DNA from: a virus
Virus record (IMG/VR): IMGVR_UViG_3300049005_000046
Span: 1 to 25,282 of that record
Direction: 5' to 3' (one strand)
Length of the DNA: 25,282 nucleotides
The notes beneath the pieces were generated by a model. The model searched no databases. It was not told where the DNA came from and saw nothing but the letters and a program-made list of their open reading frames with translations. This document shows, piece by piece, positions 65-20,900 of this stretch. Within the stretch, counting starts at the first letter, position 1. Every line of letters starts with the position of its first letter. A program made the position numbers and the translations under genes.

Positions 65-2068
65 TCAGGCGGCCGGGCAGAGCACGCTTTCCGCCGCGCC
101 TGTCGCACCGGACGCGCACAGCGGGACGGTCAGCAGCCTGGCGTCGTAGCACCTCTTCCCGACCATCAGCCCCTCCTCGGAAAAGAGGGCCGTGTACTTG
201 TTGGTCTCCAGGAGGGTGGAGTCGTAGATGCCGTCGAGCGTGATCACGCTCGCCTGGCCGGCGAAGAACGTGCCGGCCGGGTAGAGAAGGATCTTGACGG
301 TCGCCGGCCACGTCTTGCTGGGGGTCGCCCCGCCGATGTCGGTCGCCGTCCCGGAGATCAGCGCGTCCTGCCAGTCGTAGACGCGTTGGACGGCGACGCC
401 GCGCAGCGCCAACCACTGCGTGACCTGCTGGTCGGTGACGGACAGCATGTCCACGCCCGTCCTTTTCGCCAAGTCCGACCGCAGCACCCCATCGAGCCAG
501 TCGGGGATGATGCACTCCACCGTCGCTTCCTGCGGCAGCCGGTACTTGTACCGGATGTCGGTGACCTGCAACTCGATCAGCCCGAGGACCGACGCGGTCG
601 CGCCCGGCCCGTACGGCGCGTTGCCGGACCCGGGCACGGTGATGGTGACGGCGGTGGCGAGCGCCGCCATCCGCTTGATCTTCTCCGCGTTCACCCGGTG
701 GGCGTGCGCGATCAGCGCGTTCTCGGTGACGTACTTGACCATCTCCGGATACCCGACCTGCTGCAGGATGCCGGCCTGGATGCACAGGCCGACCGCGTCC
801 AGCCGCGTCTCGCTGAACGGCGGGCAGGTCACCTCGTAGCACGGCTTGACGTCGCCGGCGATATTCTGCGCCTCCGTCTGGATGAACCCGGTGGCCGAGT
901 AGATGGCGCTGAAGTCGGGCGGGGTCGGCCACCTCAGGCCGCCGCGCATCACGGTGACGGTGGGGATGTTCACCATCCCGTCCTCCGACGCCGTGCCGCA
1001 CAGGTCATACAGGACCTCGGACGGTGCGCACCAGCCGCCGGCGGCCACCAGGCTGCCGCCGGGGAGGGTCTTCTCGTTCGCGGCCCGCTCCACGGCCTGC
1101 CAGTCGCCTTCGTCCCGCACCGTCAGCCCTGGGTCGGAGTGGCGGCGGAGGGTGATGATGCCGGCCTGCATCTGCCGGTTGGCCCCCAGCCGGGCCATCG
1201 CCTGCATCTTCCGGGACACCGCGTCGACCACCTGGTCCATGTCGTCCAGGTCGGCGCCGGCCGGCACGCCGGGGATGTCGGCGGCGGCGATCGCCGTGTA
1301 CTTCCGCTGCGCCTTCCGCTGCGGCGGCCCGCTGGTCGGGATGGCGCCGAGGGGGACGCGGGGGCGGGGGACGCCGGCGGCCGCCACCGGCTCCGGGACC
1401 GGCTGGGCCGGAGGCGCCGGCGGTGCCTGCTGCTGGGGAGGTGCGGTCGGCGGCTGCCCGGCCGGCGGCGGTTGCGGTGGGGGCGGGGGCGGTGGCGGGT
1501 CGGCGGGCGGCGGCTGGGGCTGGCCGCCTGCCTGCCCGCCGTCGCCGGGGTCGGGCTGGTTCGGTGTGCCGCCGCCTTCGCCGCCTTCGCCGCCTTCGCC
1601 GCCTTCGCCGGCGGGATCGGCGGGGTCGGGGTCCGGCGGGGTGGTCGCGGCGTGGACGCGGGCAGCGATGTCGGCCGCCCGCTGCTGTGCCGCCGCGCGA
1701 GCTTCGTCGGCGGCGTGCCGCTCGGCCTGCACCGCCTCGACCACATCGGCCAGGGCCTCCATGGAGGCGAGGTCGGCGTCGGTGTGGTCGGTGCGGTCGG
1801 ACAGTCCCTGAAACTGGTCCAGGGCCTGCTGGCCGACCGAGTCGAGGTCGACCGCCACCTCGGGGTTGGCGAGGAAGGCGCGGAGCGCCGCCGCCCTGTC
1901 CTCGGGCGTGGAGGAAGCGTGCTGCCGGGCGACGTCGAGAAGCTGGCTGAGGAAGTCCACTGCTGCCCCCACGGACAGGGAGTCGACCGCGGTTTCCGTC
2001 GCGGTCCCGTCCTCCCGGCCCTCAGCCTGCGGAGCAACCTGCCCACACGTAGTGGGGCGGTTGTTCAC
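65..2068 (-). CDS. Major capsid protein with fused N-terminal scaffold-like region
   Basis: This is the phage major head protein, assembling the icosahedral shell. From the GTG chosen at 2068 it is 667 aa. The N-terminal part (about residues 30-150) is acidic, helical and rich in Ala/Glu/Gln, like a scaffold or delta domain. It is followed by a Gly/Pro-rich linker holding GGE repeats and long proline runs, and then by the shell domain (about residues 240-667), which contains VAAGGWCAPSEVLYDL, FIQTEAQNIAGDVKPCYEV and a C-terminal portion typical of actinophage HK97-fold capsid proteins. Start is uncertain: the frame is open to 2227, GTG 2068, 1972 and 1960 are alternatives, and none has a clear Shine-Dalgarno. 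The maturation protease, portal and terminase upstream on the same strand support the assignment. Oddly, the gene is separated from the protease by an oppositely oriented plus-strand cassette, so it probably has its own promoter; TACAGT just before GTG 2068 could be a -10 element. Family identity is inferred from sequence pattern, not from a search. Confidence 0.85.
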   Translation of the reverse strand: MNNRPTTCGQVAPQAEGREDGTATETAVDSLSVGAAVDFLSQLLDVARQHASSTPEDRAAALRAFLANPEVAVDLDSVGQQALDQFQGLSDRTDHTDADLASMEALADVVEAVQAERHAADEARAAAQQRAADIAARVHAATTPPDPDPADPAGEGGEGGEGGEGGGTPNQPDPGDGGQAGGQPQPPPADPPPPPPPPQPPPAGQPPTAPPQQQAPPAPPAQPVPEPVAAAGVPRPRVPLGAIPTSGPPQRKAQRKYTAIAAADIPGVPAGADLDDMDQVVDAVSRKMQAMARLGANRQMQAGIITLRRHSDPGLTVRDEGDWQAVERAANEKTLPGGSLVAAGGWCAPSEVLYDLCGTASEDGMVNIPTVTVMRGGLRWPTPPDFSAIYSATGFIQTEAQNIAGDVKPCYEVTCPPFSETRLDAVGLCIQAGILQQVGYPEMVKYVTENALIAHAHRVNAEKIKRMAALATAVTITVPGSGNAPYGPGATASVLGLIELQVTDIRYKYRLPQEATVECIIPDWLDGVLRSDLAKRTGVDMLSVTDQQVTQWLALRGVAVQRVYDWQDALISGTATDIGGATPSKTWPATVKILLYPAGTFFAGQASVITLDGIYDSTLLETNKYTALFSEEGLMVGKRCYDARLLTVPLCASGATGAAESVLCPAA
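1571..1606. repeat. 9-bp tandem repeat, four units, inside capsid gene
   Basis: The plus-strand unit GCCGCCTTC occurs four times in a row. On the coding (minus) strand it encodes repeated Glu-Gly-Gly in the linker between the scaffold-like and shell regions. The unit length is a multiple of three, so copy number changes would only lengthen or shorten the linker. Confidence 0.9.
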
Positions 2069-2174
2069 GACTGTAGCTGATGAGGCGCGGGTGGTTTGGG
2101 GGTTGCCGGCTGGCCTGTCGAGTGGCGGTGGGACTATTGGGGTGGTTTGGGTGTGAGAGAGCCGCACTACCTGC

Positions 2175-2795
2175 GTGAAGGGGTGCGGTGGTGTCCGTGC
2201 GGTGGTCTCCGCGGTGACGGCTCTCACCCCACCCCAGCACCCGCTCGTCTGGCGGGCGCTGAACCTCGCGCACGCCTTCTACCGGGGTCGGCGGCCGGCG
2301 GTGGGGCGGGAACCGCTGACGGCCCACACCATGCGCTTCCTTCGCCACCTTGAGCGCCACGTCGACGCGCCGGCGCCGGAGCTGGTCGCGGCCGCGCTCC
2401 TCCACCACGCGCTCGACGGGCCCGGCTCGCGCGAGGCCGCGCTGCGCGCTGTCGCACGAGGCTGCGGCTGGCAGGTCGCGCGGGTGGTCGAGGCGTTCCA
2501 AGACCAAGCCGATCGTGTCGGCCGGCCCGCCCCGCCCGGCCCGCCGACCACCCTCACAGAGTTGTGGGCGAGCTGGTTGGTGGCCTGCGAGCACCACGTG
2601 GTCCTGACCGCCCTCCTCCACCTCGCCCCGCCCGAGGAACTGGTGGCGACGGCCGACTGGTACCTGCCGGCCGTCCGCCGGTTCCTGGAAGGCAGCCGCG
2701 ACCACCTCCTCACCCTCCTCGCGGTTGAGCTGGCGGTGGCCATCGATGCCGTCGACCACGCCGCCGAGTGGGAAGCACGGAATGTGAGGGGTTGA
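2175..2795 (+). CDS. HD-like domain protein (degenerate metal motif), first gene of RiPP-like cassette
   Basis: This 206-aa, alpha-helical protein resembles the HD hydrolase fold of RelA/SpoT-type (p)ppGpp hydrolases: an early His-containing helix (LAHAFYRG), then HTMRFLRHL, then AAALLHHALDGPG where the family normally has L-L-H-D, and a later helix with ACEHH. The Asp of the hallmark HD doublet is replaced by His, so metal-dependent phosphohydrolase activity is doubtful. The GTG at 2175 has GAGAGAG 13 nt upstream; GTG 2202 and GTG 2214 are alternatives, and the recognisable domain begins just after them. It is divergent from the capsid gene and about 90 nt before the radical SAM gene, so it probably belongs to the same cassette. 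Its role is unknown; substrate binding, regulation or peptide processing are possible. Confidence 0.7.
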   Translation: MKGCGGVRAVVSAVTALTPPQHPLVWRALNLAHAFYRGRRPAVGREPLTAHTMRFLRHLERHVDAPAPELVAAALLHHALDGPGSREAALRAVARGCGWQVARVVEAFQDQADRVGRPAPPGPPTTLTELWASWLVACEHHVVLTALLHLAPPEELVATADWYLPAVRRFLEGSRDHLLTLLAVELAVAIDAVDHAAEWEARNVRG

Positions 2796-2861
2796 CGGCG
2801 GACGGTCGCCGGGGTGGGATAGGGCCGGGTTTGGGTGCTTTGGGGAGAGCCGAGTCCCTCG

Positions 2862-2878
2862 TGTCCGAATATCGGAGG
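2862..2878 (+). promoter_or_regulatory. Hairpin/ribosome-site module before radical SAM gene
   Basis: TGTCCGAATATCGGAGG contains a 5-bp inverted repeat (TCCGA/TCGGA, 3-nt gap) whose right arm runs into the Shine-Dalgarno GGAGG. It ends 7 nt before the TTG start of the radical SAM gene. The same 17 nt with one mismatch, at identical spacing, precede the gene at 22610. Confidence 0.6.
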
Positions 2879-2885
2879 AGGCAGG

Positions 2886-4046
2886 TTGAGCACCCCCACC
2901 ACCACACCGACCACCACCCCGACCAGGCTGGCCGGGCGGGAGCTGGTCGCCGCCCGCTTCCTCACCCACCACCTGATCGTCAGGCAGGGCAGCGAGCGCG
3001 GCCTCACCGTCCCCGCCGCCCACTACCGGGCGCTGGAGAGCGCGCCACCCGACAAGCCGCCGCCCGGATGGCTGGTCGACGCGGCCCGCGAAGCCTGGGG
3101 CGTCGACGTGGCCGACGACCTGGCCGACCGGCCGACCCGCCCCACCATCCTCTTCCGCGACCCATCACCGTACGGATACGGCAGGGCAAGCTACGAGCTC
3201 AACCTCGGCTGCAACTACGACTGCGAACACTGCTACCTCGGCCTGAAGCGGTTCGAGGGCCTGGCCTGGCCAGACCGGAAACGCCTCCTCCACCTGCTCG
3301 CCGACGCGGGGGTGGTGTGGTTGCAGTTGACCGGCGGGGAACCGCTGATCGATCGCCTCTTCCTCCCCACCTACCAGCTCGCCTGGCAGCTCGGGATGAT
3401 GATCACGATCTCCAGCAACGGGTCACGCCTCGCCAACCCCGACATCCTCCACACCCTCACCACCCACCGGCCATACCGGATCACGTTGAGCGTGTACGGG
3501 GCGACCGCGGACGCCTACGACTCCTTGACCCGCCGCCCCGGCTCCTACCGCAAGTTCATGAAGGGGCTGACCGCCGCCCACCACGCGGGTCTGCCGCTGC
3601 GCCTCAACCTCGTTCTCACCCGCCACAACGCCCACGAGGCCGACGCGATGGCCGCGATAGCCGACGGGCTCGGCATCCCCCACCACTCCTACAGCAACAT
3701 CTCGCCCACCATTTACGGCGGGGCGGAGGCGCTGCCGTCCCAGTCGACGGAGTACCTGAAGAAGCGGAAGCCGTTCACCGGCTGCAACGCCGGCCACACC
3801 TTCTTCCACGTCGACCCGCACGGCCGCGCCAGCATCTGCAAGATCGGCCGGGAGCCCAACGTCCCGCTGGTCGAGGAAGGCATCACCAGCCTGGCCCGCC
3901 TCGGGCACATCGCCGACGGCCTCCTGACCCGCCAGGGCGGCTGCTCCGGCTGCACCCTGTCCGGGTCGTGTGGGACGTGCATGCCGCTCGCCGCCCTCTA
4001 CCGGAAGGCCGGCGCGGACAAGACCGCCTACTGCCAGCACCGCTGA
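2886..4046 (+). CDS. Radical SAM/SPASM peptide maturase (RiPP-modifying)
   Basis: This 386-aa protein is a radical S-adenosylmethionine enzyme with a C-terminal SPASM domain, expected to modify a ribosomal peptide in the cytosol. The TTG at 2886 was chosen because GGAGGAG lies 5-6 nt upstream; an earlier in-frame start at 2835 lacks this. Residues 1-100 form an N-terminal region that could bind the precursor. The CX3CX2C cluster motif is C109-N-Y-D-C113-E-H-C116, followed by LTGGEPL (SAM binding) and ISSNGS. The C-terminus has the seven-cysteine SPASM pattern: C300, then a GX4C ending at C318, C353-X2-C356-X5-C362-X2-C365 and C383, ligands for two auxiliary 4Fe-4S clusters. The next gene, 30 nt downstream, encodes a 60-aa peptide with an ideal ribosome site, its likely substrate. 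The reaction (thioether, C-C link, epimerisation or other) cannot be read from sequence. An anaerobic sulfatase maturase was considered, but no sulfatase is nearby. Confidence 0.9.
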   Translation: MSTPTTTPTTTPTRLAGRELVAARFLTHHLIVRQGSERGLTVPAAHYRALESAPPDKPPPGWLVDAAREAWGVDVADDLADRPTRPTILFRDPSPYGYGRASYELNLGCNYDCEHCYLGLKRFEGLAWPDRKRLLHLLADAGVVWLQLTGGEPLIDRLFLPTYQLAWQLGMMITISSNGSRLANPDILHTLTTHRPYRITLSVYGATADAYDSLTRRPGSYRKFMKGLTAAHHAGLPLRLNLVLTRHNAHEADAMAAIADGLGIPHHSYSNISPTIYGGAEALPSQSTEYLKKRKPFTGCNAGHTFFHVDPHGRASICKIGREPNVPLVEEGITSLARLGHIADGLLTRQGGCSGCTLSGSCGTCMPLAALYRKAGADKTAYCQHR

Positions 4047-4076
4047 ACCGCCCCACGCTGAAGGAGGTACTCGCTC

Positions 4077-4259
4077 ATGCCACCTGTCCCCATCGCTCTC
4101 CTCACCCGCCCGCCCAGCTCCGACACCCCGCCGGCTGACGCCCCAGCTGACGAAATGGTCGGCGGGCTGATCGGCGAGGTGACCGTCATCGGTGACCTGG
4201 ACAAGGTGGTCGAGACCACCATGTGCAGCTGCGCGGCGGGCGACGACGCGCCCTACTGA
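4077..4259 (+). CDS. Putative RiPP precursor peptide (60 aa)
   Basis: This small peptide has a textbook Shine-Dalgarno (AAGGAGGT, 8 nt before ATG) and starts 30 nt after the radical SAM/SPASM gene. Its layout resembles a RiPP precursor: a Pro/Thr-rich N-terminus, a central leader-like stretch with IGEVTVIGDLDKVVETT, then a short C-terminal candidate core MCSCAAGDDAPY with two Cys, two Asp and a terminal Tyr. The segment DLDKVVE is reminiscent of the FxLD leader of actinobacterial lanthipeptides, but no lanthionine synthetase is present here, so this may be chance or a shared recognition motif. Likely modified residues are Cys, Asp, Thr or Tyr; which one is not known. No protease or exporter is evident in the cassette. 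Confidence that it is translated is high; that it is a precursor is inference from position, size and residues. Confidence 0.75.
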   Translation: MPPVPIALLTRPPSSDTPPADAPADEMVGGLIGEVTVIGDLDKVVETTMCSCAAGDDAPY

Positions 4260-4323
4260 ACCCCGCGCTGAAGCCGGCCGGCATCGGGCGTGTCGTTGCG
4301 ATAGCCACCCGCCAGCCGGCCAC

Positions 4324-4329
4324 TAGCCT
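4324..4329 (+). promoter_or_regulatory. Putative -10 of leaderless promoter for APH-like kinase
   Basis: TAGCCT matches the actinobacterial -10 pattern and ends 6 nt before the GTG at 4336. No Shine-Dalgarno is present. No convincing -35 was found at 17-19 nt. A GGCCGGC/GCCGGCC inverted repeat (4276-4282, 4315-4321) just upstream may end the preceding transcript. Confidence 0.4.
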
Positions 4330-4335
4330 GCCTCG

Positions 4336-5142
4336 GTGGCGTTGAGCCGTGTCGCGTGGGACGAGCTGGGCGACGAGGTGCGGGCAGCGGTCGCTGCTCG
4401 CACCGGCCGCCTGCTTGACGTGCAGATGGCGGGGGAAGGGATGAACTCACCCATCGCCTTCCACCTCACCACCCTCACCGGCCGCGTCTTCCTCAAGGGC
4501 CTCCACCGCGACCACCGCGGCGGTGTCGAGGCGCAGCAGCGGGAAGCCGCCGTCAACCCCTACGTCGCCCACCTCACCGCCCGCATCCTGTGGCAGGCGG
4601 AGGTGGCCGGCTGGCACCTGCTGGCCTTCGAGCACCTGCCGGGCCGGCACGCCGACTACCACCCCGACGCCCACGACCTCCCCCAGGTCGTCCGGCTCAT
4701 CGACCAGCTCACCGCCACCCCGCCGCCGCCTCACGACGTCCCGGTCAGGCAGGCCGGGCAGCGGTGGGCCGCCTACCTCCCGCCCGGCGCGGAGGAACTG
4801 CTCGACGGCACGACGCTCCTCCACACCGACCTCAGCCCCGACAACGTGCTGGTGGACGGCGACACCGCCCGCCTGATCGACTGGGCGTGGCCGACGGTCG
4901 GCGCGCCGTGGATCGACCCGGCCGTCCTTGCCTTCCAGCTCATCGCCGCCGGCCACCCACCCCGCCAGGCCGAGCAGTGGGCGGCCAGGACCGCCGCATG
5001 GTCGTGCGGGACGCGGGAAGCGGTCGACGCCTTCGCCGCGGCCAACAGCAGCCTGTGGGAGGAGATCGCGCGGCAGGACCCGACACCGTGGAAGAAGGAG
5101 CTGGCGGCCGCCGCGTACGCGTGGGCCGACTACCGCTTCTGA
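4336..5142 (+). CDS. APH/choline-kinase-fold phosphotransferase
   Basis: This 268-aa cytosolic kinase belongs to the aminoglycoside phosphotransferase (APH) superfamily. The N-lobe includes GEGMNSPIAFHL and RVFLKGLHRD; the C-lobe carries the catalytic Brenner motif H163-T-D165-L-S-P-D-N170 and the metal-binding IDW (D182), followed by GAPWIDPAVL, all as in active members. Length is normal for the family. The GTG at 4336 lacks a ribosome site, but a -10-like TAGCCT lies 6 nt upstream, suggesting leaderless translation. It follows the precursor-like peptide by 76 nt on the same strand, so it may phosphorylate the peptide, a cofactor or a small molecule; similarity to APH does not by itself show antibiotic resistance. 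It could also be an unrelated cargo gene. Confidence 0.85.
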   Translation: MALSRVAWDELGDEVRAAVAARTGRLLDVQMAGEGMNSPIAFHLTTLTGRVFLKGLHRDHRGGVEAQQREAAVNPYVAHLTARILWQAEVAGWHLLAFEHLPGRHADYHPDAHDLPQVVRLIDQLTATPPPPHDVPVRQAGQRWAAYLPPGAEELLDGTTLLHTDLSPDNVLVDGDTARLIDWAWPTVGAPWIDPAVLAFQLIAAGHPPRQAEQWAARTAAWSCGTREAVDAFAAANSSLWEEIARQDPTPWKKELAAAAYAWADYRF

Positions 5143-5184
5143 TCCGGAGTTCACACCCGGGCCGCCTCGCGGACCTATAGGGGT

Positions 5185-5364
5185 ATGGACGAGAACGAGC
5201 CGATCGCGGACGTCCTGCGGGACGTCCTTGATCTCATCGACCAGCTTGTCGCCCGGATCACGGACGACGAGATCGAGGAGCGCCGACGCCGCGTCCTCGC
5301 CCGCGCGCAAGGCCGGCCAGCCGGAAGGTGTCGGGCAGGCGGAACGCGAAAGCCGGCCGGGTGA
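5185..5364 (+). CDS. Small acidic helical protein (59 aa)
   Basis: The ATG at 5185 opens a 59-codon frame. The first 40 residues are strongly helical and amphipathic (DVLRDVLDLIDQLVARIT, then an acidic/basic EIEERRRRV segment), followed by a basic Gly/Arg tail. The upstream sequence CTATAGGGGT may combine a -10 and a weak AGGGG ribosome site. It lies 42 nt after the kinase on the same strand, and its stop codon is inside the left arm of the strong hairpin that ends the plus-strand cassette. Function unknown. Codon use (high G/C at third positions in the first 40 codons) supports coding. Confidence 0.6.
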   Translation: MDENEPIADVLRDVLDLIDQLVARITDDEIEERRRRVLARAQGRPAGRCRAGGTRKPAG

Positions 5365-5399
5365 AGTGGACGGCTCCTTGGAGCCTTCACCCGGCCGGC
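5352..5399. terminator. Bidirectional terminator-like hairpin
   Basis: A perfect 15-bp inverted repeat (GCCGGCCGGGTGAAG at 5352-5366, complement at 5385-5399) encloses a second stem GGCTCC/GGAGCC (5372-5377, 5380-5385). It lies between the convergent plus-strand cassette and the minus-strand head genes. There is no strong U tract, as is common in high-GC actinobacteria. Confidence 0.75.
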
Positions 5400-5789: not shown

Positions 5790-7781
5790 TCAGGCTCCCT
5801 TCCCGGCCCGCCCCGCCGCACGACCCACCCGCTCCCCGAGCAGCTGGACGCGGGTGTTGCGGACGCGGGCGGCGACCTCCTCGGCTCGCCGAGTGCGGGC
5901 CGCCTCGTCCTGCTGCTCGCCCATCAGCTCAACGACCCTGCGCGCGACCCGCTCCGCCGACACGTCGGGGGGCCGCCGGCCCGCCCGCCGTACCCGTACA
6001 CGGTGGGGGAGGGCGCCTGCCGCGACCAAGCTCAACGGCCGCCCTTCCTCGCCGGTGCGGAAGCGGGGGATGGGGAAGCCCGGCACGTTGACCGCCAACG
6101 CCGCCACCAGCTCAAGGTGCCCGCCGACCGGCCGCCAGTCGCCGGAGAGGGGCGAGCGGCGCAGCACGGCCACCTGCTCCTCGGTGAGGCCGGGCAGGAG
6201 GCTACCGGCGACCCAGATCCCATGCTCATCCTCGCCAGCGGCGACGGCGGCGGCCGCCGACCCGGTGTGGGCGTAGTGGGTCATCGTGTCGACCAGGCCG
6301 GCGGTGGGTTCGGCGTGCGTCGTGCCGGCGACGATCGTGCCGACCGGCACGTCCGCCCCCTCGGCCGTGCGGATGAGACCGGTGTGGAACAGGCCGTACC
6401 CGGTCGCGGAGTGGGGTGGGGTGCGGCAGTGGCCGGTGATCCCGGTGTGGCAGGTCTCCCACGTCGCGAGGTGCCCGTAGACGCGGCCGTCGTCGGTGAC
6501 GGCGAGCGGGGTCGGCCCGGCCAGCTTCGGGTCTGCGAACCAGGCGGCCGGCGGTGCGGCCGGGCCGCCGGCCGCCACCACCGGCGCGACCGGCCGGGTG
6601 GTGATCATGCCGCCGGACGCCGGGGCGAGGCTGCTCGCGCTCGAGTCTTCCCACGGCGGGGTGATGCTGGAGTCGTTGAACTCGCGCGCCGCCGCCCGGT
6701 ACAGGGCGGCCAGCTTCGCCTTCACCGCGTCCATCTCGCTGTCCGGGATGCCGACGCGGCCGCGCGCCGACGCGGCCGCGAACACACCGCGCAGGACGGC
6801 GCGGAGCTGGCCGTCCACGATGTCGGCGAAGCCCAGCTTGTACGCGCTCACGCTCATAGGCGGCTGGTCGGGGTCGCGCCACAGGAACGCGCGGCTGTAC
6901 TTGGTGGGGTCGATGGCGTTGCTGTCGCCCTTGGCCCAGTCGGCGACCCGCTGCGCCGCCGCCGCGCTGTCCCACGCGTGGTCGCGGGGGGCCCAGGGGA
7001 GGCCGGCGTCGCCGACCGCCCCGAAGCTCGGCGAGGTGCCGTGGGTGGACTGAAGGGACGCGGCGACCGGTGTCGTCCCCGCACCGACCGGCTGAGACCC
7101 GTTCGGGGGCACACCTGGTGGCATGTCCTGCGGCATGTCGTCGTAGACGGCTTCGATCTTCGCTTCCGCGAACGCGGGCTGCGCGACCAGCGTGGCGCTC
7201 ATCAGCCGCCACTCGACCGCGGCCTCCACCATCTCCAGCCCCTCGGGGACTTCGAGGATGATCCAGCCGTCGCCGTCATCGATCTCCTCGATCGCGGTCT
7301 CGCAGTCGACCTCCGCCCCGTCCTGGTAGCAGCGGGTTTCGAACGTCACGTTGTCGAGGTCGACCGACACCCACCCGGCCATCCCGCGCGCCAGCTTCCC
7401 CGCCACCTCCTGCGCTTGCGGGTTGACGAGGTCGAACGTGCCCTCACCCCACAGGAACCCGCCCTCGACCCACGCCCGCGTGATCTGGCCGACGTCGTAG
7501 GCGCCCGCATGCTCGCCCTCCAACGTCGGCTGGTACAGCAGGAGCATGGGGTAGGGGCGGGTCTGCGGTTGCCCGCCCGGCGGGGCGACGATCATCCGCC
7601 GGTCGCCGGACTGGGTGTCGAGGGGGGCCAGCCGGCCACGCCAGCCTGACGGCAAGCGGCTGCCGTCAGGACCGGTCGCTGGCGTGGCCGGCTGGGTGCC
7701 GCCCGCGTCCTGCTGGCCCGGTGGGGGGGTGGTGTCCACCGGCGGCGCGGCAGTCTGGGCGGCTTGGAGTTTGGTCATCAT
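5790..7781 (-). CDS. Capsid maturation protease
   Basis: This 663-aa protein is the prohead protease that processes scaffold and capsid during head assembly. ATG 7781 is preceded by GGGAGGG and overlaps the stop of the MuF gene (ATGA). The protease domain (about residues 30-190) shows MIVAPPGGQ, a probable catalytic His in TLEGEHAGAYDVG and a probable nucleophile Ser in GWVSVDLDN, as in actinophage serine proteases. A variable linker (about 215-400) leads to a conserved C-terminal region with YGHLATWETCHTGITGHC and the following GYGLFHTG, also typical of the actinophage family. At 663 aa it is long; the C-terminal half may be a structural or scaffolding domain released after cleavage. The catalytic residues are inferred from motif position, not from a structure. 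Confidence 0.85.
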   Translation of the reverse strand: MMTKLQAAQTAAPPVDTTPPPGQQDAGGTQPATPATGPDGSRLPSGWRGRLAPLDTQSGDRRMIVAPPGGQPQTRPYPMLLLYQPTLEGEHAGAYDVGQITRAWVEGGFLWGEGTFDLVNPQAQEVAGKLARGMAGWVSVDLDNVTFETRCYQDGAEVDCETAIEEIDDGDGWIILEVPEGLEMVEAAVEWRLMSATLVAQPAFAEAKIEAVYDDMPQDMPPGVPPNGSQPVGAGTTPVAASLQSTHGTSPSFGAVGDAGLPWAPRDHAWDSAAAAQRVADWAKGDSNAIDPTKYSRAFLWRDPDQPPMSVSAYKLGFADIVDGQLRAVLRGVFAAASARGRVGIPDSEMDAVKAKLAALYRAAAREFNDSSITPPWEDSSASSLAPASGGMITTRPVAPVVAAGGPAAPPAAWFADPKLAGPTPLAVTDDGRVYGHLATWETCHTGITGHCRTPPHSATGYGLFHTGLIRTAEGADVPVGTIVAGTTHAEPTAGLVDTMTHYAHTGSAAAAVAAGEDEHGIWVAGSLLPGLTEEQVAVLRRSPLSGDWRPVGGHLELVAALAVNVPGFPIPRFRTGEEGRPLSLVAAGALPHRVRVRRAGRRPPDVSAERVARRVVELMGEQQDEAARTRRAEEVAARVRNTRVQLLGERVGRAAGRAGKGA

Positions 7782-12798: not shown

Positions 12799-14007
12799 TC
12801 AGAACCCGACGCCCTGCTTCAGGAACTCGCCGGTGTACAGGTCCTCGTACTTCAGGCCCGTTTTGAAGTGCTGATGGAGGGTGGCCGCGACGGCTTGCTG
12901 CTGGGTGATGAAGGCGGTGACGCGGCCGTGGTCGAACGCGCCGACCGTCTTGCCCGGCCCGTCCGACATCAGCAGTTGCTGCTTCATCGTCTTCACCGCG
13001 AACGCCGCCCGCTCGACCGGGTAGGGATATTCGGCGTAGAAGTCGGCCGAGTTGAGTTTTGACATGAACTCGTTCGTCTTCGTCGGGTTGCGCGTGTAGT
13101 CGACCTCGGCGTCCTGAAGGATCGGCACCAGCTTGCGCAGGCACGCTGTTTCCTGATGGAGCTTCGAGGCGAGCACGGAGATGACGTTGACGTACGGGTC
13201 GTACAACTGCATCCCCTGCCACAGGACAACGGCCTTCACCGGCTTGTGCCAGCGCGGGTCCTTCCGCAACTCATCCGTCTCATTCGACACGTAGCCCTCG
13301 AAGATCCAGTCCGGGTGGGCGAGGAACGGGGCGATTGAGCCGTCAGCATCGGCGACGATCTGCCCCTGCTTCAGCACCCCCAGCGCGACCAGGGCGGTCG
13401 CATACGACGAGGACGCCGAGGTGTGGACTCGCGCTGACGGGTCCTGGCCGATGTCGGCGACCGAGTGGAAGCCTGGCCAGCGCTTCGGGTCGAAGATCAA
13501 CGAGATCGGAGAGTGGTTCAGCGGCGCGAACACGCCGATCACCGGCTGTTTCGCCGGGTCGCTGTTGACGCCGGTCGCATAGTCACCATCGACGGCGGCC
13601 GCGAAGATCTGGTCCGGGCTCGCCTCCATCAGGTCGGCGGCCTTCGCGTAGTTGACCGCAGGCCCACCCGACCTCAACTCCAGGTCGACGCCGGTATCGA
13701 CGTTGCCGGCGATCAGGTCGCCGACCACCTTCTTGTGGGCGCTGTCGATCAGGACGTGTTGCCCGCCGATCAAGTCGTAGAACGGCCCATCGCTCGCCTC
13801 CGGGAACCAGCCGAGCTGGAACACGATCCTGCTCGGGCAAACCCCCCTCAGCGACTCGGCGGCGGACGCCTGCCGGCCTTCCTTCCCATGAACGGTCTTG
13901 GTACCGCTGTCGCACCCCGCCGCACTGGCCAGCGGCAGGGCGGCGGCAAGGACACCGGCGGCGAGCCGACGCCGCCAACGCCAGCCTTGACGGCTGAAAA
14001 ATCCCAT
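12799..14007 (-). CDS. Secreted lipoprotein, ABC-type (NMT1/SsuA-like) substrate-binding protein
   Basis: This 402-aa protein resembles periplasmic-type substrate-binding proteins of the NMT1/THI5/SsuA group, which bind small molecules for ABC importers. The N-terminus has a basic region, a hydrophobic core (LAAGVLAAALPLASA) and a lipobox-like AAGC with Cys32, predicting a lipid-anchored surface protein. The mature part opens with IVFQLGWFPEASDGPFYDL, matching the L-x-W-x-x-x-A-x-x-x-P-x-Y start of this family, followed by VDTGVDLELRSGGPAVNYAKA and later motifs of a two-lobe binding fold. ATG 14007 has AGGAG 8 nt upstream. No permease or ATPase gene is next to it. It lies between terL and portal, behind a 28-bp palindrome and before a terminator, so it looks like a self-contained cargo unit. 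It could help the lysogen, decoy a receptor or exclude other phages; none is shown. Confidence 0.85.
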   Translation of the reverse strand: MGFFSRQGWRWRRRLAAGVLAAALPLASAAGCDSGTKTVHGKEGRQASAAESLRGVCPSRIVFQLGWFPEASDGPFYDLIGGQHVLIDSAHKKVVGDLIAGNVDTGVDLELRSGGPAVNYAKAADLMEASPDQIFAAAVDGDYATGVNSDPAKQPVIGVFAPLNHSPISLIFDPKRWPGFHSVADIGQDPSARVHTSASSSYATALVALGVLKQGQIVADADGSIAPFLAHPDWIFEGYVSNETDELRKDPRWHKPVKAVVLWQGMQLYDPYVNVISVLASKLHQETACLRKLVPILQDAEVDYTRNPTKTNEFMSKLNSADFYAEYPYPVERAAFAVKTMKQQLLMSDGPGKTVGAFDHGRVTAFITQQQAVAATLHQHFKTGLKYEDLYTGEFLKQGVGF

Positions 14008-16318: not shown

Positions 16319-16951
16319 TCAGCCCTTCCGGCCGGCCAGCGCGAAGAACTCGGCCCGCGTCTCCGCCTGCTTTCGGAACGCTCCGCGCAGGGCGGAGGTG
16401 TGGAAGGCCGCGCTGCGCTTCCGCGCCCCCCGCACCGTCATGCACGTGTGTACCGCTTCCAGCACCACACCCACCCCTGACGGCTTCAGGTGGTCTTCGA
16501 TGGCGTCGGCGACCTGGTTGGTCAGCCGTTCCTGCACTTGCAGGCCGCGTGAGTAGGCGTCGACGACGCGGGCCAGCTTGGACAGGCCGACGATCCGCCT
16601 GCTGAGCGGCAGGTAGGCGACCCACGCATGCCCGTAGAAGGGGAGGAGGTGGTGTTCGCACAGCGACACGAACTCGACGGGCCCGCAGCAGACCATCTGG
16701 TCGACCTCGCCGGCGTCCTCGAACTGGACGGCCAGCAGCTCGCCGACCGTGCGGTCCGGTGGCGTGGTCATTTCCTCAAGGGCTGCGATGACCCGGTCGG
16801 GGGTGCGGGCGAGGCCGGGGCGGTCCGGGTCGTCGCCGGCGAGCTGGAGGAGGGCACGCACCCCGTCCCGCGCCGCCTCCACCGGGCTGTGGGGGCGGCG
16901 CATGCTGGTCGCGGGTGGGGTGGTGGATGCGGGGGCACCGATCTGGGTCAT
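16319..16951 (-). CDS. folE: GTP cyclohydrolase I (FolE)
   Basis: This 210-aa enzyme converts GTP to dihydroneopterin triphosphate, the first step of 7-deazaguanine synthesis. Zinc ligands C98 and H101 (in LCEHHLLPFYGHAWVAYLP) and C170 (in HTCMTVRGARK) are all present, as is the substrate loop around QVQERLT. A 25-residue N-terminal extension is poorly conserved. ATG 16951 shares one base with the queE stop (TGATG), which sets the start. Its place next to queE and queD shows it supplies the phage pathway and not only folate. Confidence 0.95.
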   Translation of the reverse strand: MTQIGAPASTTPPATSMRRPHSPVEAARDGVRALLQLAGDDPDRPGLARTPDRVIAALEEMTTPPDRTVGELLAVQFEDAGEVDQMVCCGPVEFVSLCEHHLLPFYGHAWVAYLPLSRRIVGLSKLARVVDAYSRGLQVQERLTNQVADAIEDHLKPSGVGVVLEAVHTCMTVRGARKRSAAFHTSALRGAFRKQAETRAEFFALAGRKG

Positions 16952-17727
16952 CAGCGGCCCTTCTGATCGTCGTAGAGGAGGGTGTGGAGGCGGGTGGTGG
17001 TGTGGAAGCCGTGCGCGTGGATGGCGGCGGCGATGGCGCGGTGCGTCTCTACCACCGCGGCGGCGGTCGTCCCCTCCGGCATGATCCACACCGCGTCGGC
17101 CGGCAGGTGGTGGGCGGCAGCCAGCTCGGCGGCCTCGCGTACGTCGAGGATGCTGGTGCAGACGAACTTGAAGCAGGCCCGGCCGTCCTCGGCCAGCTCG
17201 CGGAACGCGGCGAGCGGTTTCGACTTGACCCGCTGCCGCTCCGCCACCCCGCTGTTGCCGAGCTTGGGGGAGACCGTCCAGTGGTCGACCCGCTCAGCGA
17301 GCCATGGCCGGGGCACCAGCGTTCCGTTCGTCTCGACATGCCACCGGCCCTGCCAGCCGGTCACCAGGGCGCTGAGACCCTCCCGCGACTGCCACAGGAG
17401 CGGCTCACCGCCGGTCATGACGCACAGGGTGGTGCGGTGGCCGAGGAGGGCGCCGAGGACGGCGGTGACCGACGTTTCCGGGCAGGTCTGGGTGAGGTCG
17501 TGGCGGGCGGCGTCCCACGTCTCCGGCTGATCACACCAGGCGCAGTCGAGGTTGCAGTGGCCGAGGCGGAGGAAGGAGCAGCGGCGGCCGGCGTGCGGGC
17601 CTTCCCCCTGCCACACCGGCCCGTACACCTCGGCGACGGGGAGCGTGATCGGGCCGCCGATCTGGGACGGGGGTGGTGGCGGGATGGCGACCGGCACCCC
17701 CGGCGGCAGCGGCGGCGGATAGCTCAT
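16951..17727 (-). CDS. queE: 7-carboxy-7-deazaguanine synthase (QueE), radical SAM
   Basis: This 258-aa radical SAM enzyme rearranges 6-carboxytetrahydropterin to 7-carboxy-7-deazaguanine. The cluster motif is C58-N-L-D-C62-A-W-C65, followed by VMTGGEPLL, VETNGT and VSPKLGNSG, all QueE hallmarks. The first 30 residues are a Pro-rich extension. ATG 17727 overlaps the queD stop by 4 nt (ATGA). Length is near normal for QueE (about 210-250). Confidence 0.93.
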   Translation of the reverse strand: MSYPPPLPPGVPVAIPPPPPSQIGGPITLPVAEVYGPVWQGEGPHAGRRCSFLRLGHCNLDCAWCDQPETWDAARHDLTQTCPETSVTAVLGALLGHRTTLCVMTGGEPLLWQSREGLSALVTGWQGRWHVETNGTLVPRPWLAERVDHWTVSPKLGNSGVAERQRVKSKPLAAFRELAEDGRACFKFVCTSILDVREAAELAAAHHLPADAVWIMPEGTTAAAVVETHRAIAAAIHAHGFHTTTRLHTLLYDDQKGR

Positions 17728-18269
17728 CGCCCGGCTCCGTTGGCGGCGGCCGCCGGCGTGGCCACCACGCTCGCGGAGTTGGTCTGCGTCTCCCGCACCC
17801 GCACCCGCGACACGCACGCGCCGGGCGCGGGTGCGGTGGTCGCCGCGAGGGCATGCCCGGCCAGCCGGTGGAGGAGGCCGGCGACCTCCTCCACCGTCGG
17901 CCACAGCTGCCCGGCGGTGGTGAACTGGCTGCGCTCCTGGTCGCCGAAGACGAAGACCTTGCAGCCCTGCGCGATGAGGATCGAGGTGAGCGGGTCGTCG
18001 CGGCCCAGCATGCTGCCGTGGTCGAGGTAGCCGTCGATGAGGCCGCGGAGGCGGGCCTTGAACTCGCCGAACTCCACCACCGTCCCCAGCGGGGTGAGCT
18101 CGGGCGCTGAGACGGCGATGTCGACCCGCCACGAGTGGCCGTGGAGGCTGGCGCACTTCCCGCCGAGGTGGGGGAGGCGGTGGGCGGCCTCCCACGTGTG
18201 GCTGACGGTGATGACGTGCCGGACGGCCGCCGGCGTCGCTGCGCGGCTTGTCACCTGATGTCGCGTCAC
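17724..18269 (-). CDS. queD: 6-carboxytetrahydropterin synthase (QueD)
   Basis: This 181-aa enzyme converts dihydroneopterin triphosphate to 6-carboxytetrahydropterin. Zinc ligands H30 (EAAHRLP), H43 and H45 (LHGHSW) and catalytic C39 (GGKCASLHGH) are visible, plus VVEFGEFK and YLDHGSMLG, matching the D-F and L-D-H motifs of the family. A 25-30-residue C-terminal tail is Ala/Thr-rich and probably disordered. The GTG at 18269 overlaps the queC stop (GTGA). Confidence 0.93.
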   Translation of the reverse strand: MTRHQVTSRAATPAAVRHVITVSHTWEAAHRLPHLGGKCASLHGHSWRVDIAVSAPELTPLGTVVEFGEFKARLRGLIDGYLDHGSMLGRDDPLTSILIAQGCKVFVFGDQERSQFTTAGQLWPTVEEVAGLLHRLAGHALAATTAPAPGACVSRVRVRETQTNSASVVATPAAAANGAGR

Positions 18270-19489
18270 GCCGGGCCTTCCAGGGAGAGCGGCGCGACGG
18301 TGGTGGTCGGCTGGTCATCCGCCCACCAGTCGGGGCCGTACCCGATCCGCGCCATGATCACGTAGGCGGTGGCGTCGCGGCCGACCCGCTGCCCAGACCG
18401 CACCCGCGCGTCGTGCTTGGCCCAGAAGTCGCGGGCCGGGCCGTCCAGCTTCAGCCCGCCGGGGAAGGTCGCGGTGACCTCATCGAGGAAACCGGCGCCG
18501 CCGAACGCCAGGACCCGCTGGAGGCACGCCCAGCACGCCCCGCAGTGCGAGGTGTCGGGCTGGTAGCAGGTGCGGGTGGCGAGGGCTTCGTCCAGCCGGC
18601 CGCGCTCCGCCCACCAGCGGACCAGGTCCATCTTGCTGAGCCCCTGGAGGGGGTGGGTGAGGTGGAAGTCGAAGCCGGCGGCCGTCATCAGCTGCTGCAG
18701 GGTGGTGTGGAAGCGGAGGCTCTTGTCGCCGGCCGCCAGCTTCGTCTCATCGCCCCGGTTGCCGACCCAGATCTCCCCCCACTGGCCGCGGTGGGCTTCG
18801 GCGACCGTCCACAGGATCGCCGCGTTCCGGCCGCCCTGAATGTGCTGGTAGGTGCGTTTGTAGGCGAGGGGGCGGGTGATGACGGACAGGTCGGGGGCGA
18901 AGAGGCGGGCGGTCTTGATCTCCTCCTCGGCGTACGGGATGCCGGTGTCGATGTAGACGGCGATGCGGGGCAGTTCCAGCTCGCACGCCATCGCCCACGC
19001 GGTGGTGGAGTCGAGGCCGCCGGTCAGCGGGACGACGACCACCGCGCCCGGCGCGTGGTCGCCGGTGGACTCGGGGTTTTCGGCGCAGTTGTCCATCGCC
19101 GCCCGGAAGGGGGTGTCGACCGGGCCGCCCACCCACTCCGCCACCGGGTCGATGTCGTCGGGGGCGAGGCGGACCCACTCCTCCTGCGCGGCCGGTGGGA
19201 GGAGCAGCCCGCGGTCGTCCATGTAGACGTCGCCGTTGACCTTCCCGTAGGTGAGCTGGTGGTAGGGGACGTGGTGGAGGTGGAGCCAGTAGGCCAGCTC
19301 GCTGTGGTGGGCCGGGGGGCGGGAAGTCTGGATGACGATGCGGAACCCGGCGACCTCCAGCCGCTTGAGGAGGGCGATGAGGCCGGGGCGGGGCGGGCCG
19401 GGGGCTTCCCGCTGCGTGTCGACACAGACGGTCCCGTCGAAGTCGATGACGAGGGTCGGCTCGTGGTACCAGTTCCGGACGCCGTTCAC
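18266..19489 (-). CDS. queC: HAD-phosphatase/7-cyano-7-deazaguanine synthase (QueC) fusion
   Basis: This 407-aa protein joins two enzymes. Residues 1-110 form a small HAD-type domain with D16-F-D18-G-T, a motif II Ser/Thr in IVIQTSRPP, and YGKVNGDVYMDDRG supplying Lys and the acidic pair. Residues 148-407 are QueC, which makes preQ0 from 7-carboxy-7-deazaguanine with ATP and ammonia: PP-loop TGGLDST at 156-162, DTGIPYAEEE, and the zinc site C308, C316, C319, C322 in TCYQPDTSHCGACWACLQR. QueC alone is about 220-240 aa, so the N-terminus is an added domain. GTG 19489 has GGAGG upstream and overlaps the preceding stop (GTGA). The HAD substrate is unknown. Confidence 0.92.
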   Translation of the reverse strand: MNGVRNWYHEPTLVIDFDGTVCVDTQREAPGPPRPGLIALLKRLEVAGFRIVIQTSRPPAHHSELAYWLHLHHVPYHQLTYGKVNGDVYMDDRGLLLPPAAQEEWVRLAPDDIDPVAEWVGGPVDTPFRAAMDNCAENPESTGDHAPGAVVVVPLTGGLDSTTAWAMACELELPRIAVYIDTGIPYAEEEIKTARLFAPDLSVITRPLAYKRTYQHIQGGRNAAILWTVAEAHRGQWGEIWVGNRGDETKLAAGDKSLRFHTTLQQLMTAAGFDFHLTHPLQGLSKMDLVRWWAERGRLDEALATRTCYQPDTSHCGACWACLQRVLAFGGAGFLDEVTATFPGGLKLDGPARDFWAKHDARVRSGQRVGRDATAYVIMARIGYGPDWWADDQPTTTVAPLSLEGPA

Positions 19490-19995
19490 GCGACACCTCC
19501 CGCCTGCTGGCCGGCTGCCGTGCTGGCTGCCTGGCTGCGGTCTGAGCCGCCGGGGTCGCGGAACGCGGCCTCCGGCAGCGGGTGGCCGGTCGCGAGCGCC
19601 CACCAGCCGGCGCAGACCATGTAGCCGAGCGGCATGCCGGCCGCCCACGCCGCCGGCTGGTAGCCGGTGCCTTCGGCCTGGTCCTGCCTGAGCATCCCGT
19701 GGTGGCAGAAGAAGGCGGTGTCGGGGCCGGGGCGGCGGGCGTCTTCCTCCTCGGGGCTGCCCGGCCGGTAGGCGCAGTCGACGCACGGACTCTTCATCAC
19801 GGCGGGCGGTCGGGGAAGCGCCACCACCTCTTCCGGGCTGTAGCCGGCGATGTCGTCGGTGGTCCCGGAGCCGTGGCAGTGCAGGCACTTCTCGCCCGAC
19901 TCCCACCGCCCGTTGTCGCAGTATGGGCAGCGGTAGCGGCTGAGCCTGACCGTCCCAGCCGCCGGGCTCGGTACCGAGTAGTTGACGCAGTTCAT
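19486..19995 (-). CDS. Cys-rich zinc-binding protein within modification operon
   Basis: This 169-aa protein has a DnaJ-like zinc knuckle, C23-P-Y-C26 and C37-L-H-C40-H-G-S-G, then a second cluster C71-V-D-C74-A-Y-R-P-G-S-P with C97-H-H and C128 (AFFCHHGM, YMVCAGWW). These suggest two metal sites. It lies between dpdA and queC with 4-nt overlaps on both sides and an ideal GGAGG ribosome site, so it is made together with the modification enzymes and may be a further base-modifying enzyme or DNA-targeting partner. The C-terminal 35 residues are low-complexity. No named family was recognised with certainty. Confidence 0.8.
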   Translation of the reverse strand: MNCVNYSVPSPAAGTVRLSRYRCPYCDNGRWESGEKCLHCHGSGTTDDIAGYSPEEVVALPRPPAVMKSPCVDCAYRPGSPEEEDARRPGPDTAFFCHHGMLRQDQAEGTGYQPAAWAAGMPLGYMVCAGWWALATGHPLPEAAFRDPGGSDRSQAASTAAGQQAGGVA

Positions 19996-20900
19996 GACAC
20001 TTCAACCTCCTGGGGTGGGCAGGGGGTGACGGGCAGGCTGCCGGCGACCGCGTACTTCCACTCGTCGGGGCCGACGGCGAGGTACAGCTTGGTGCCGAGT
20101 TCGGCGGGTGGCAGGTCGCGCGGCGGGGTGACGCGGTGGCGGCGGACGAGGTACTGCCCCCACGCGGCGAAGGAGCGGGCGGCGGCGACGACCAGCTTCA
20201 CCCGGTCGTCAGACGCCTCGCCGTACCGGCGGAAGTCGGGCTGGAGGACGCGGTGGGCTGGCAGGTCGTAGGCACGCAGCAGGGCGGCGTGCCGCGCGAC
20301 GTCTTCCCGCCTGCGGTAGTACACGCGGGTGAGCCGCATCCGCCGCTCATCCCACAGGGTCACCAGCGGGCAGCGGATGGACATGGTGAACGTCGATGAG
20401 TCGACGGAGTACAAGGGCATCCTGTTGAGCAAGCCCGGCGCGGTGATACCGAACGCGTGGAACCGCGCCCCATGCTCGCCGCCGACGCGGAGGCAGCGGA
20501 GCAGCCACGCGCCGATGGCCCGCCGTGATGGACGGCCGCCGGCCAGGCCGCCGAGCGCGATGTAGGGGTAGGTGCGGCAGAGCGCGGCCAGCTCGTCCCA
20601 CGGCTCCCCTCCGTGGAAGACGGGGAAGACGTGGCAGCCCCGCCGCTCCATCTCGTGCAGGTTGCGGCGTGACGCGGCGTGGTCGCCGACCACGTCGAGG
20701 TTGGCGGCGGTGGTGAACAGGCCGTCCCAGTCGCGCAGCCAGGCCGCGTACTCGCCCGGCTTGATCACCGCCCCCGTCGTGTACGCGCTGTACGCGCCGG
20801 AGTCGGCGAACAGGTCGACGCCGCCCGGCACCCGGTCGACCAGCGCGGCCAGGTCGACGGTGCGGAAGTAGTGGTAGCTGACGAGGATCTGCGGCTTCAC
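19992..20900 (-). CDS. dpdA: DpdA-like DNA transglycosylase (7-deazaguanine insertion into DNA)
   Basis: This 302-aa protein resembles phage DpdA, a tRNA-guanine transglycosylase (TGT) relative that swaps guanine in DNA for a 7-deazaguanine. TGT-like motifs in order: DLFADSGAYSAY (D33, first catalytic Asp), NLDVVGD (D69), FPVFHGGEP, IALGGLAGGR (117-123, base-binding loop), FHAFGITAP and YSVDSSTF with D167, the probable nucleophile. The CxCxxC-H zinc site of true TGT is absent, as expected for phage DpdA. GTG 20900 overlaps the ParB-like stop (GTGA). Being in one operon with folE, queD, queE and queC makes the DNA role very likely. Confidence 0.88.
   Translation of the reverse strand: MKPQILVSYHYFRTVDLAALVDRVPGGVDLFADSGAYSAYTTGAVIKPGEYAAWLRDWDGLFTTAANLDVVGDHAASRRNLHEMERRGCHVFPVFHGGEPWDELAALCRTYPYIALGGLAGGRPSRRAIGAWLLRCLRVGGEHGARFHAFGITAPGLLNRMPLYSVDSSTFTMSIRCPLVTLWDERRMRLTRVYYRRREDVARHAALLRAYDLPAHRVLQPDFRRYGEASDDRVKLVVAAARSFAAWGQYLVRRHRVTPPRDLPPAELGTKLYLAVGPDEWKYAVAGSLPVTPCPPQEVEVS

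Follow-up and report, generated by a model that had tools for sequence, protein, structure and literature searches.

Gene content of the phage locus

The stretch of DNA analyzed here (the window) comprises the 25,282 nucleotides of IMG/VR record IMGVR_UViG_3300049005_000046, over the whole of which coordinates are counted, and is an actinobacterial phage. Its head gene block contains three consecutive plus-strand genes for a radical SAM/SPASM enzyme, a small peptide and an APH-fold kinase. A sequence-only reading had proposed that they belong to a biosynthetic module for a ribosomally synthesized and post-translationally modified peptide (RiPP) carried as phage cargo, and this was supported by the co-occurrence of peptide and enzyme at other loci and by related phages in which the cassette is missing. 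The genes of the module are as follows:

2886..4046, plus strand: radical SAM/SPASM peptide maturase, 386 aa (Pfam Radical_SAM 5.5e-12; TTG start behind GGAGGAGG)
4077..4259, plus strand: precursor peptide, 60 aa (core TTMCSCAAGDDAPY; Shine-Dalgarno AAGGAGGT at 4061-4068)
4336..5142, plus strand: APH-fold kinase (Pfam APH 4e-9; catalytic motifs HTDLSPDN and LIDWAW intact)

The annotations suggested by the sequence-only reading, namely a maturase with all seven SPASM cysteines, a precursor-like peptide behind a ribosome site and a kinase, agreed with the Pfam matches, the cysteine set and the conservation of the peptide described below.

The radical SAM/SPASM enzyme

The maturase consists of a predicted N-terminal recognition-element-like domain (residues 20-81), a radical SAM core and a seven-cysteine, SPASM-type C-terminus. 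In an alignment with 49-50 relatives, the CxxxCxxC motif (C109/C113/C116) is invariant, as are six of the seven SPASM-type cysteines (C300, C318, C353, C356, C362, C365 and C383), with C353 being nearly so. An AlphaFold2 model built from an alignment with 49 relatives reached a predicted local distance difference test (pLDDT) score of 85 and showed three strands followed by three helices at residues 20-81, an arrangement that, as predicted, corresponds in topology to a RiPP recognition element. Foldseek matched this model along nearly its full length to SkfB, SuiB and CteB, all of which are RiPP maturases.

The enzyme fits no curated NCBIfam family, because its strongest score, 71 bits, falls short of the 500 bits that the respective model requires. 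Its sequence matches include mycofactocin and pyrroloquinoline quinone (PQQ) enzymes, and with 65 bits it missed the threshold of the curated mycofactocin maturase model (265). A PADLOC scan returned no specific defence-system match, only weak generic viperin matches. A viperin-type defence enzyme was rejected, as the pVip profile covers only the radical SAM core (residues 103-251) and both the SPASM region and the peptide partner are foreign to viperins.

A conserved precursor peptide

Relatives were gathered by searches with the radical SAM protein alone in phage Success, IMG/VR and GTDB genomes. The resulting set of 102 loci consists of 80 GTDB genomes (the best 80 of 219 loci), about 20 IMG/VR contigs, Streptomyces phage Success and the window. 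A small peptide with a conserved core follows the radical SAM gene in 102/102 loci, four of which are near-duplicate contigs. The two findings that would have spoken against a RiPP module, radical SAM homologues lacking the peptide and a small open reading frame (ORF) that is not conserved among relatives, were therefore not encountered, and at the level of sequence the partnership of peptide and enzyme is established. For the first 15 loci, all short ORFs 3' of the radical SAM gene were listed, and the shared C-terminus emerged before any motif was imposed. Overall, 100 peptides were recovered by pattern, one by an ORF that continues to the end of a short contig (L070) and one by an in-frame fusion (L083); at L069 the correct ORF is the one from the short-ORF listing and not the pattern pick. 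The most frequent junction between enzyme and peptide gene is a 4-bp overlap of the ATGA type (34/100).

Two classes of peptide were distinguished. Class A (n=70) has the consensus C-S-C-x-A-[GS]-D-D-[NQ]-P-[YHF], with both cysteines present in 70/70; the peptide of the window ends in CSCAAGDDAPY. Class B (n=27) has the consensus G-C-[GNS]-[DNE]-D-N-P-Y, with GC...DNPY in 27/27, and often extends one or two residues beyond the tyrosine. The ratio of nonsynonymous to synonymous differences (pN/pS) was 0.35 for the whole peptide (18 close pairs) and about 0.12 in the last 14 codons, with a pN of 0.023 versus a pS of 0.193 in the core. The peptide is thus under purifying selection and, because it is also conserved across 102 loci, a chance ORF was rejected.

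Upstream of the core, the peptides share a hydrophobic-acidic leader motif, V-x-[FVI]-[VI]-x-D-[LVM]-D (VTVIGDLD in the window). In Streptomyces sp. APSN-46.1 (L083, 6079-7329), maturase and precursor are encoded in one uninterrupted frame. The leader stretch of this fusion had no alignment partners in the structure prediction; a joint alignment of peptides and enzymes misplaced the peptides and was excluded from folding. In the resulting model the leader-motif block (391-400, EDIQIIDNID) had a pLDDT of 77 and the adjacent blocks 47 and 40. As only the leader-motif block was placed with fair confidence, we read this as predicted docking of the leader.

Exchange of kinase and acetyltransferase

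The third gene varies among loci. According to our survey of 98 loci, a kinase orthologue is present in 73 and a GNAT acetyltransferase in 27, with both in 5 within the stretch examined, so that the exchange of the third gene is evident from gene content. Both kinase motifs, HTDxxxxN and [LIV][LIV]DWAW, are preserved in the window as well as in the majority of relatives. The last aromatic residue of the core follows this exchange: it is tyrosine in 73/73 kinase loci and histidine or phenylalanine in 19/22 GNAT-only loci (Fisher p 3e-17, computed over sequences that are related to one another). The tree requires at least three changes of the third gene, and an independent-pairs test of the link between tyrosine and kinase found one to three pairs, for which its power is too low. 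Because kinase loci keep the tyrosine and GNAT-only loci mostly have histidine or phenylalanine, the pattern is most simply explained by a kinase that targets the core tyrosine or a group derived from it.

Further genes were seen at some loci. A conserved protein of ~147 aa lies directly 3' of the kinase at 11 loci with class B peptides (L029, L030, L045, L049, L051, L052, L064, L071, L108, L110 and L111) and had no Pfam match. At the Pseudofrankia locus L028 (4757-5980), whose radical SAM enzyme groups with that of the window (Shimodaira-Hasegawa-like approximate likelihood ratio test 89), a protein-isoaspartate methyltransferase-like gene lies 15 bases upstream of the radical SAM gene, and the peptide core carries the conserved Asp-Asp. 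Such genes also occur near L019 and L020.

Carriage by actinobacterial phages

In the window, the cassette is flanked by phage head genes, as the sequence-only reading had stated:

65..2227 (start 2068 or 2227), minus strand: phage major capsid protein, left of the cassette (NCBIfam MCP_Sipho NF033847 8.8e-184; PHROG major head protein phrog_777 1.3e-167)
5790..7778, minus strand: phage head maturation protease / head protein, right of the cassette (phrog_859, phrog_18402, phrog_29860)

Beyond the protease, Pfam and PHROG matches identified a MuF-type head morphogenesis protein and the portal on the minus strand, with the terminase further along. The gap between capsid and protease holds, in plus-strand order, an HD-like ORF, the radical SAM gene, the 60-aa ORF, the kinase gene, a 59-aa ORF and a stem, the cassette being antisense to the surrounding genes. 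A single-sequence query with the capsid protein, which reaches close relatives only, returned no relatives in viral contigs; related phages were instead identified by tblastn. Those without the cassette keep the order portal, head morphogenesis, protease, variable region and capsid. In this gap, Bakery and Clown have an RNA ligase plus a small gene, Hendrix has a single small gene and Pam4 has eight of them. Thus the cassette has the hallmarks of phage cargo (a 'moron'), namely a position between phage genes, opposite orientation and absence from related phages.

The location within a head gene block had been called unusual. The location itself was confirmed, but carriage by phages is recurrent and not a single oddity. 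The cassette constitutes gp1-gp3 of phage Success, an isolated Streptomyces lividans phage, and on IMG/VR contigs it is found near genes for integrase, endolysin, tape measure or portal; in some carriers (L101, L114) it lies between lysis genes and integrase. The 20.9-kb 'plasmid' phiDSM40276 of S. nigrescens (L129, NZ_CP114204.1) carries the cassette together with DUF5753/DUF397 regulators and a recombinase, and resembles a phage-like or integrative element. The family is sparse in the phylum (6/397 genomes). As the label phage or host changes at least 12 times on well-supported branches of the radical SAM tree, phage carriage has been gained or lost many times.

Elements adjacent to the module

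Three further elements lie beside the module:

2202..2795 (GTG start at 2175 or 2202), plus strand: HD-fold-like protein (HD_4 E 0.002, below the Pfam cut-off)
5185..5364, plus strand: 59-aa ORF, no relative found, module membership unsupported
5352..5399, no strand assigned: stem-loop (arms 5352-5366/5385-5399), perfect 15-bp stem, z -3.3 versus shuffles

The sequence-only reading had counted the HD-like protein as one of four genes with a potentially conserved order. While the succession of radical SAM gene, peptide and kinase or GNAT recurs, the HD-like gene has no relative near any other radical SAM locus, nor in the phages, plasmids or viral contigs searched. It was therefore rejected as a module member and probably just adjoins the module. 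Its product has a degenerate HD motif (LLHHALD) and weak similarity to the HD part of RelA/SpoT-size proteins. The stem-loop sits between the convergent cassette and phage genes and is a plausible bidirectional terminator, as had been suggested, but it lacks a T-run and was not called by a consensus terminator scan.

In bacteria, the stretch upstream of the module frequently carries regulatory genes (XRE/DUF5753, DUF397, DUF6879-like or HATPase), none of which precede the cassette in the window. Conserved genes for an exporter, an immunity membrane protein or a peptidase were found at none of the 98 loci (~6 kb flanks).

Elsewhere in the window, genes for GTP cyclohydrolase I, a QueE-like radical SAM protein, QueD (PTPS) and a QueC-domain protein are consecutive (16319-19489) and form a preQ0/7-deazaguanine pathway, which this phage probably uses to modify its DNA. 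The product of 19992-20900 resembles a DpdA-type protein, and 12799-14007 (minus strand) encodes a protein of 402 aa that appears to carry a lipoprotein signal (LPLASAAGC); neither had a Pfam match.

Comparison with known systems

The domain order, the seven-cysteine SPASM-type C-terminus and the near full-length structural match are shared with SkfB, SuiB and CteB, whose systems likewise have a small adjacent, cysteine-containing precursor with a conserved leader motif. In contrast to them, the module described here has a different precursor family, a kinase or GNAT partner and a cluster without exporter or peptidase. Mycofactocin and PQQ systems also combine a radical SAM/SPASM enzyme of detectable similarity with a short precursor that has a conserved C-terminal aromatic end, but here the precursor core contains strictly conserved Cys and DD, and the mycofactocin or PQQ partner genes were not seen nearby. 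The radical SAM enzyme PapB makes Cys-X3-Asp/Glu thioethers and tolerates spacings of n = 0-6 (PMC9413430). The class A core contains Cys-X3-Asp, and this tolerance would cover class B. Ranthipeptides are defined by a thioether from Cys to a carbon other than the alpha carbon; those of PapB differ in having six repeated motifs versus a single core and no comparable kinase/GNAT partner, and a thioether in our family is suggested by analogy. Intracellular anti-phage lanthipeptides occur in Actinomycetota, as reviewed in section 2.1.8 of PMC12360287. The loci described here resemble those covered in that section in lacking exporters and in lying partly in prophages; they differ in using a radical SAM enzyme in place of lanthipeptide synthetases, and a defence role would again be by analogy.

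Among the titles and abstracts listed from the open-access literature, none described the module and none of relevance contained its core motif; an earlier description elsewhere is possible. While the RiPP-type module is of a known kind, the precursor family, the enzyme family and the kinase/GNAT exchange are apparently undescribed.

Proposed function and alternatives

We posit that 2886-5142 is a compact RiPP module that the phage carries as cargo and whose product is modified by the radical SAM enzyme and the kinase and acts inside the lysogen or infected cell, an interpretation that we hold to be reasonably probable. The recognition-element-like domain of the maturase would bind the leader motif of the 60-aa peptide, and the radical SAM/SPASM centre would then modify the C-terminal core CSCxAGDDxPY. 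Our guess is a Cys-to-Asp thioether, because the C-x3-D spacing of class A resembles PapB substrates. The APH-fold kinase may subsequently phosphorylate the tyrosine of the core or a group derived from it, the order of these two steps likewise being a guess; at sister loci, where the terminal residue is mostly histidine or phenylalanine, its place would be taken by a GNAT acetyltransferase. Given that no dedicated exporter or protease is encoded, the product might remain in the cell and benefit the phage-host pair; action against competing phages or a regulatory role would be most likely. Intracellular action, possibly against other phages, is the weakest step and is favoured by analogy with Streptomyces lanthipeptides that counter phages inside the cell (PMC12360287). 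The most specific version, in which a new RiPP class with a Cys-Asp macrocycle is phosphorylated on the tyrosine of the same core (or, in cores that have lost this residue, served by a GNAT) and has been acquired repeatedly by actinobacterial phages to fight rival phages inside the cell, is considered doubtful.

Several points weigh against the proposed mechanism. The thioether chemistry is drawn from analogy, and class B peptides have a single cysteine at shorter spacing. Leader docking is predicted from the pLDDT of one structure model, and the recognition-element domain from topology and Foldseek, with no Pfam match in that region. Three independent switches underlie the link between tyrosine and kinase, a number that does not suffice for a phylogenetic test, and some members of one GNAT clade retain the tyrosine. 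Bacterial loci outnumber viral ones, so that the module need not serve phages, and an exporter or protease could lie beyond the ~6-kb flanks. Finally, the contig might be chimeric, although its GC content (0.717 versus 0.715-0.745) and the intact flanking genes argue against this.

Other functions were considered. The sequence-only reading had raised a bacteriocin or signal as a possible role, for which we found no direct support. The peptide would be cleaved and exported via unlinked host machinery to kill or signal to other actinobacteria, with the kinase or acetyltransferase serving maturation or self-immunity. The RiPP-like anatomy of peptide and enzyme and the XRE/DUF5753, DUF397 and HATPase regulatory genes frequent at host loci fit such a role, but no exporter, immunity membrane protein or leader peptidase is conserved near any of the 98 loci, and the core is strongly conserved, while bacteriocin cores usually diversify; we regard it as unlikely. 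Rather improbable, too, is a small molecule or cofactor comparable to PQQ or mycofactocin, in which the peptide is a scaffold whose C-terminal aromatic end is altered by the radical SAM enzyme, released by a host protease and acted upon by the kinase or GNAT. The similarity to mycofactocin and PQQ enzymes, the ...PY/PH/PF ends with their strongly conserved core and the mostly small-molecule substrates of kinase and acetyltransferase folds are consistent with this. However, class B peptides often continue one or two residues beyond the tyrosine, neither a release protease nor a dehydrogenase partner is conserved at the 98 loci, and the strictly conserved cysteine suggests that it is used. A stand-alone aminoglycoside-resistance kinase beside an unrelated radical SAM gene and small ORF would account for the APH fold. 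With an orthologue behind enzyme and peptide at 73/98 loci and a presence that tracks the final aromatic residue of the peptide, this explanation was rejected as extremely improbable.

We thus favour a phage-borne RiPP module, which belongs to a defined and testable radical SAM peptide family with two core types, where a natural enzyme swap points to the target residue of the kinase. The natural fusion at L083 is useful for structural work, and the isolated carrier phage Success makes the module open to testing in S. lividans. In an antiSMASH survey of actinobacterial prophages, putative clusters were reported in only 0.6%, several of them class I lanthipeptides (PMC10023795). According to our analysis, small RiPP modules repeatedly ride on actinobacterial phages.

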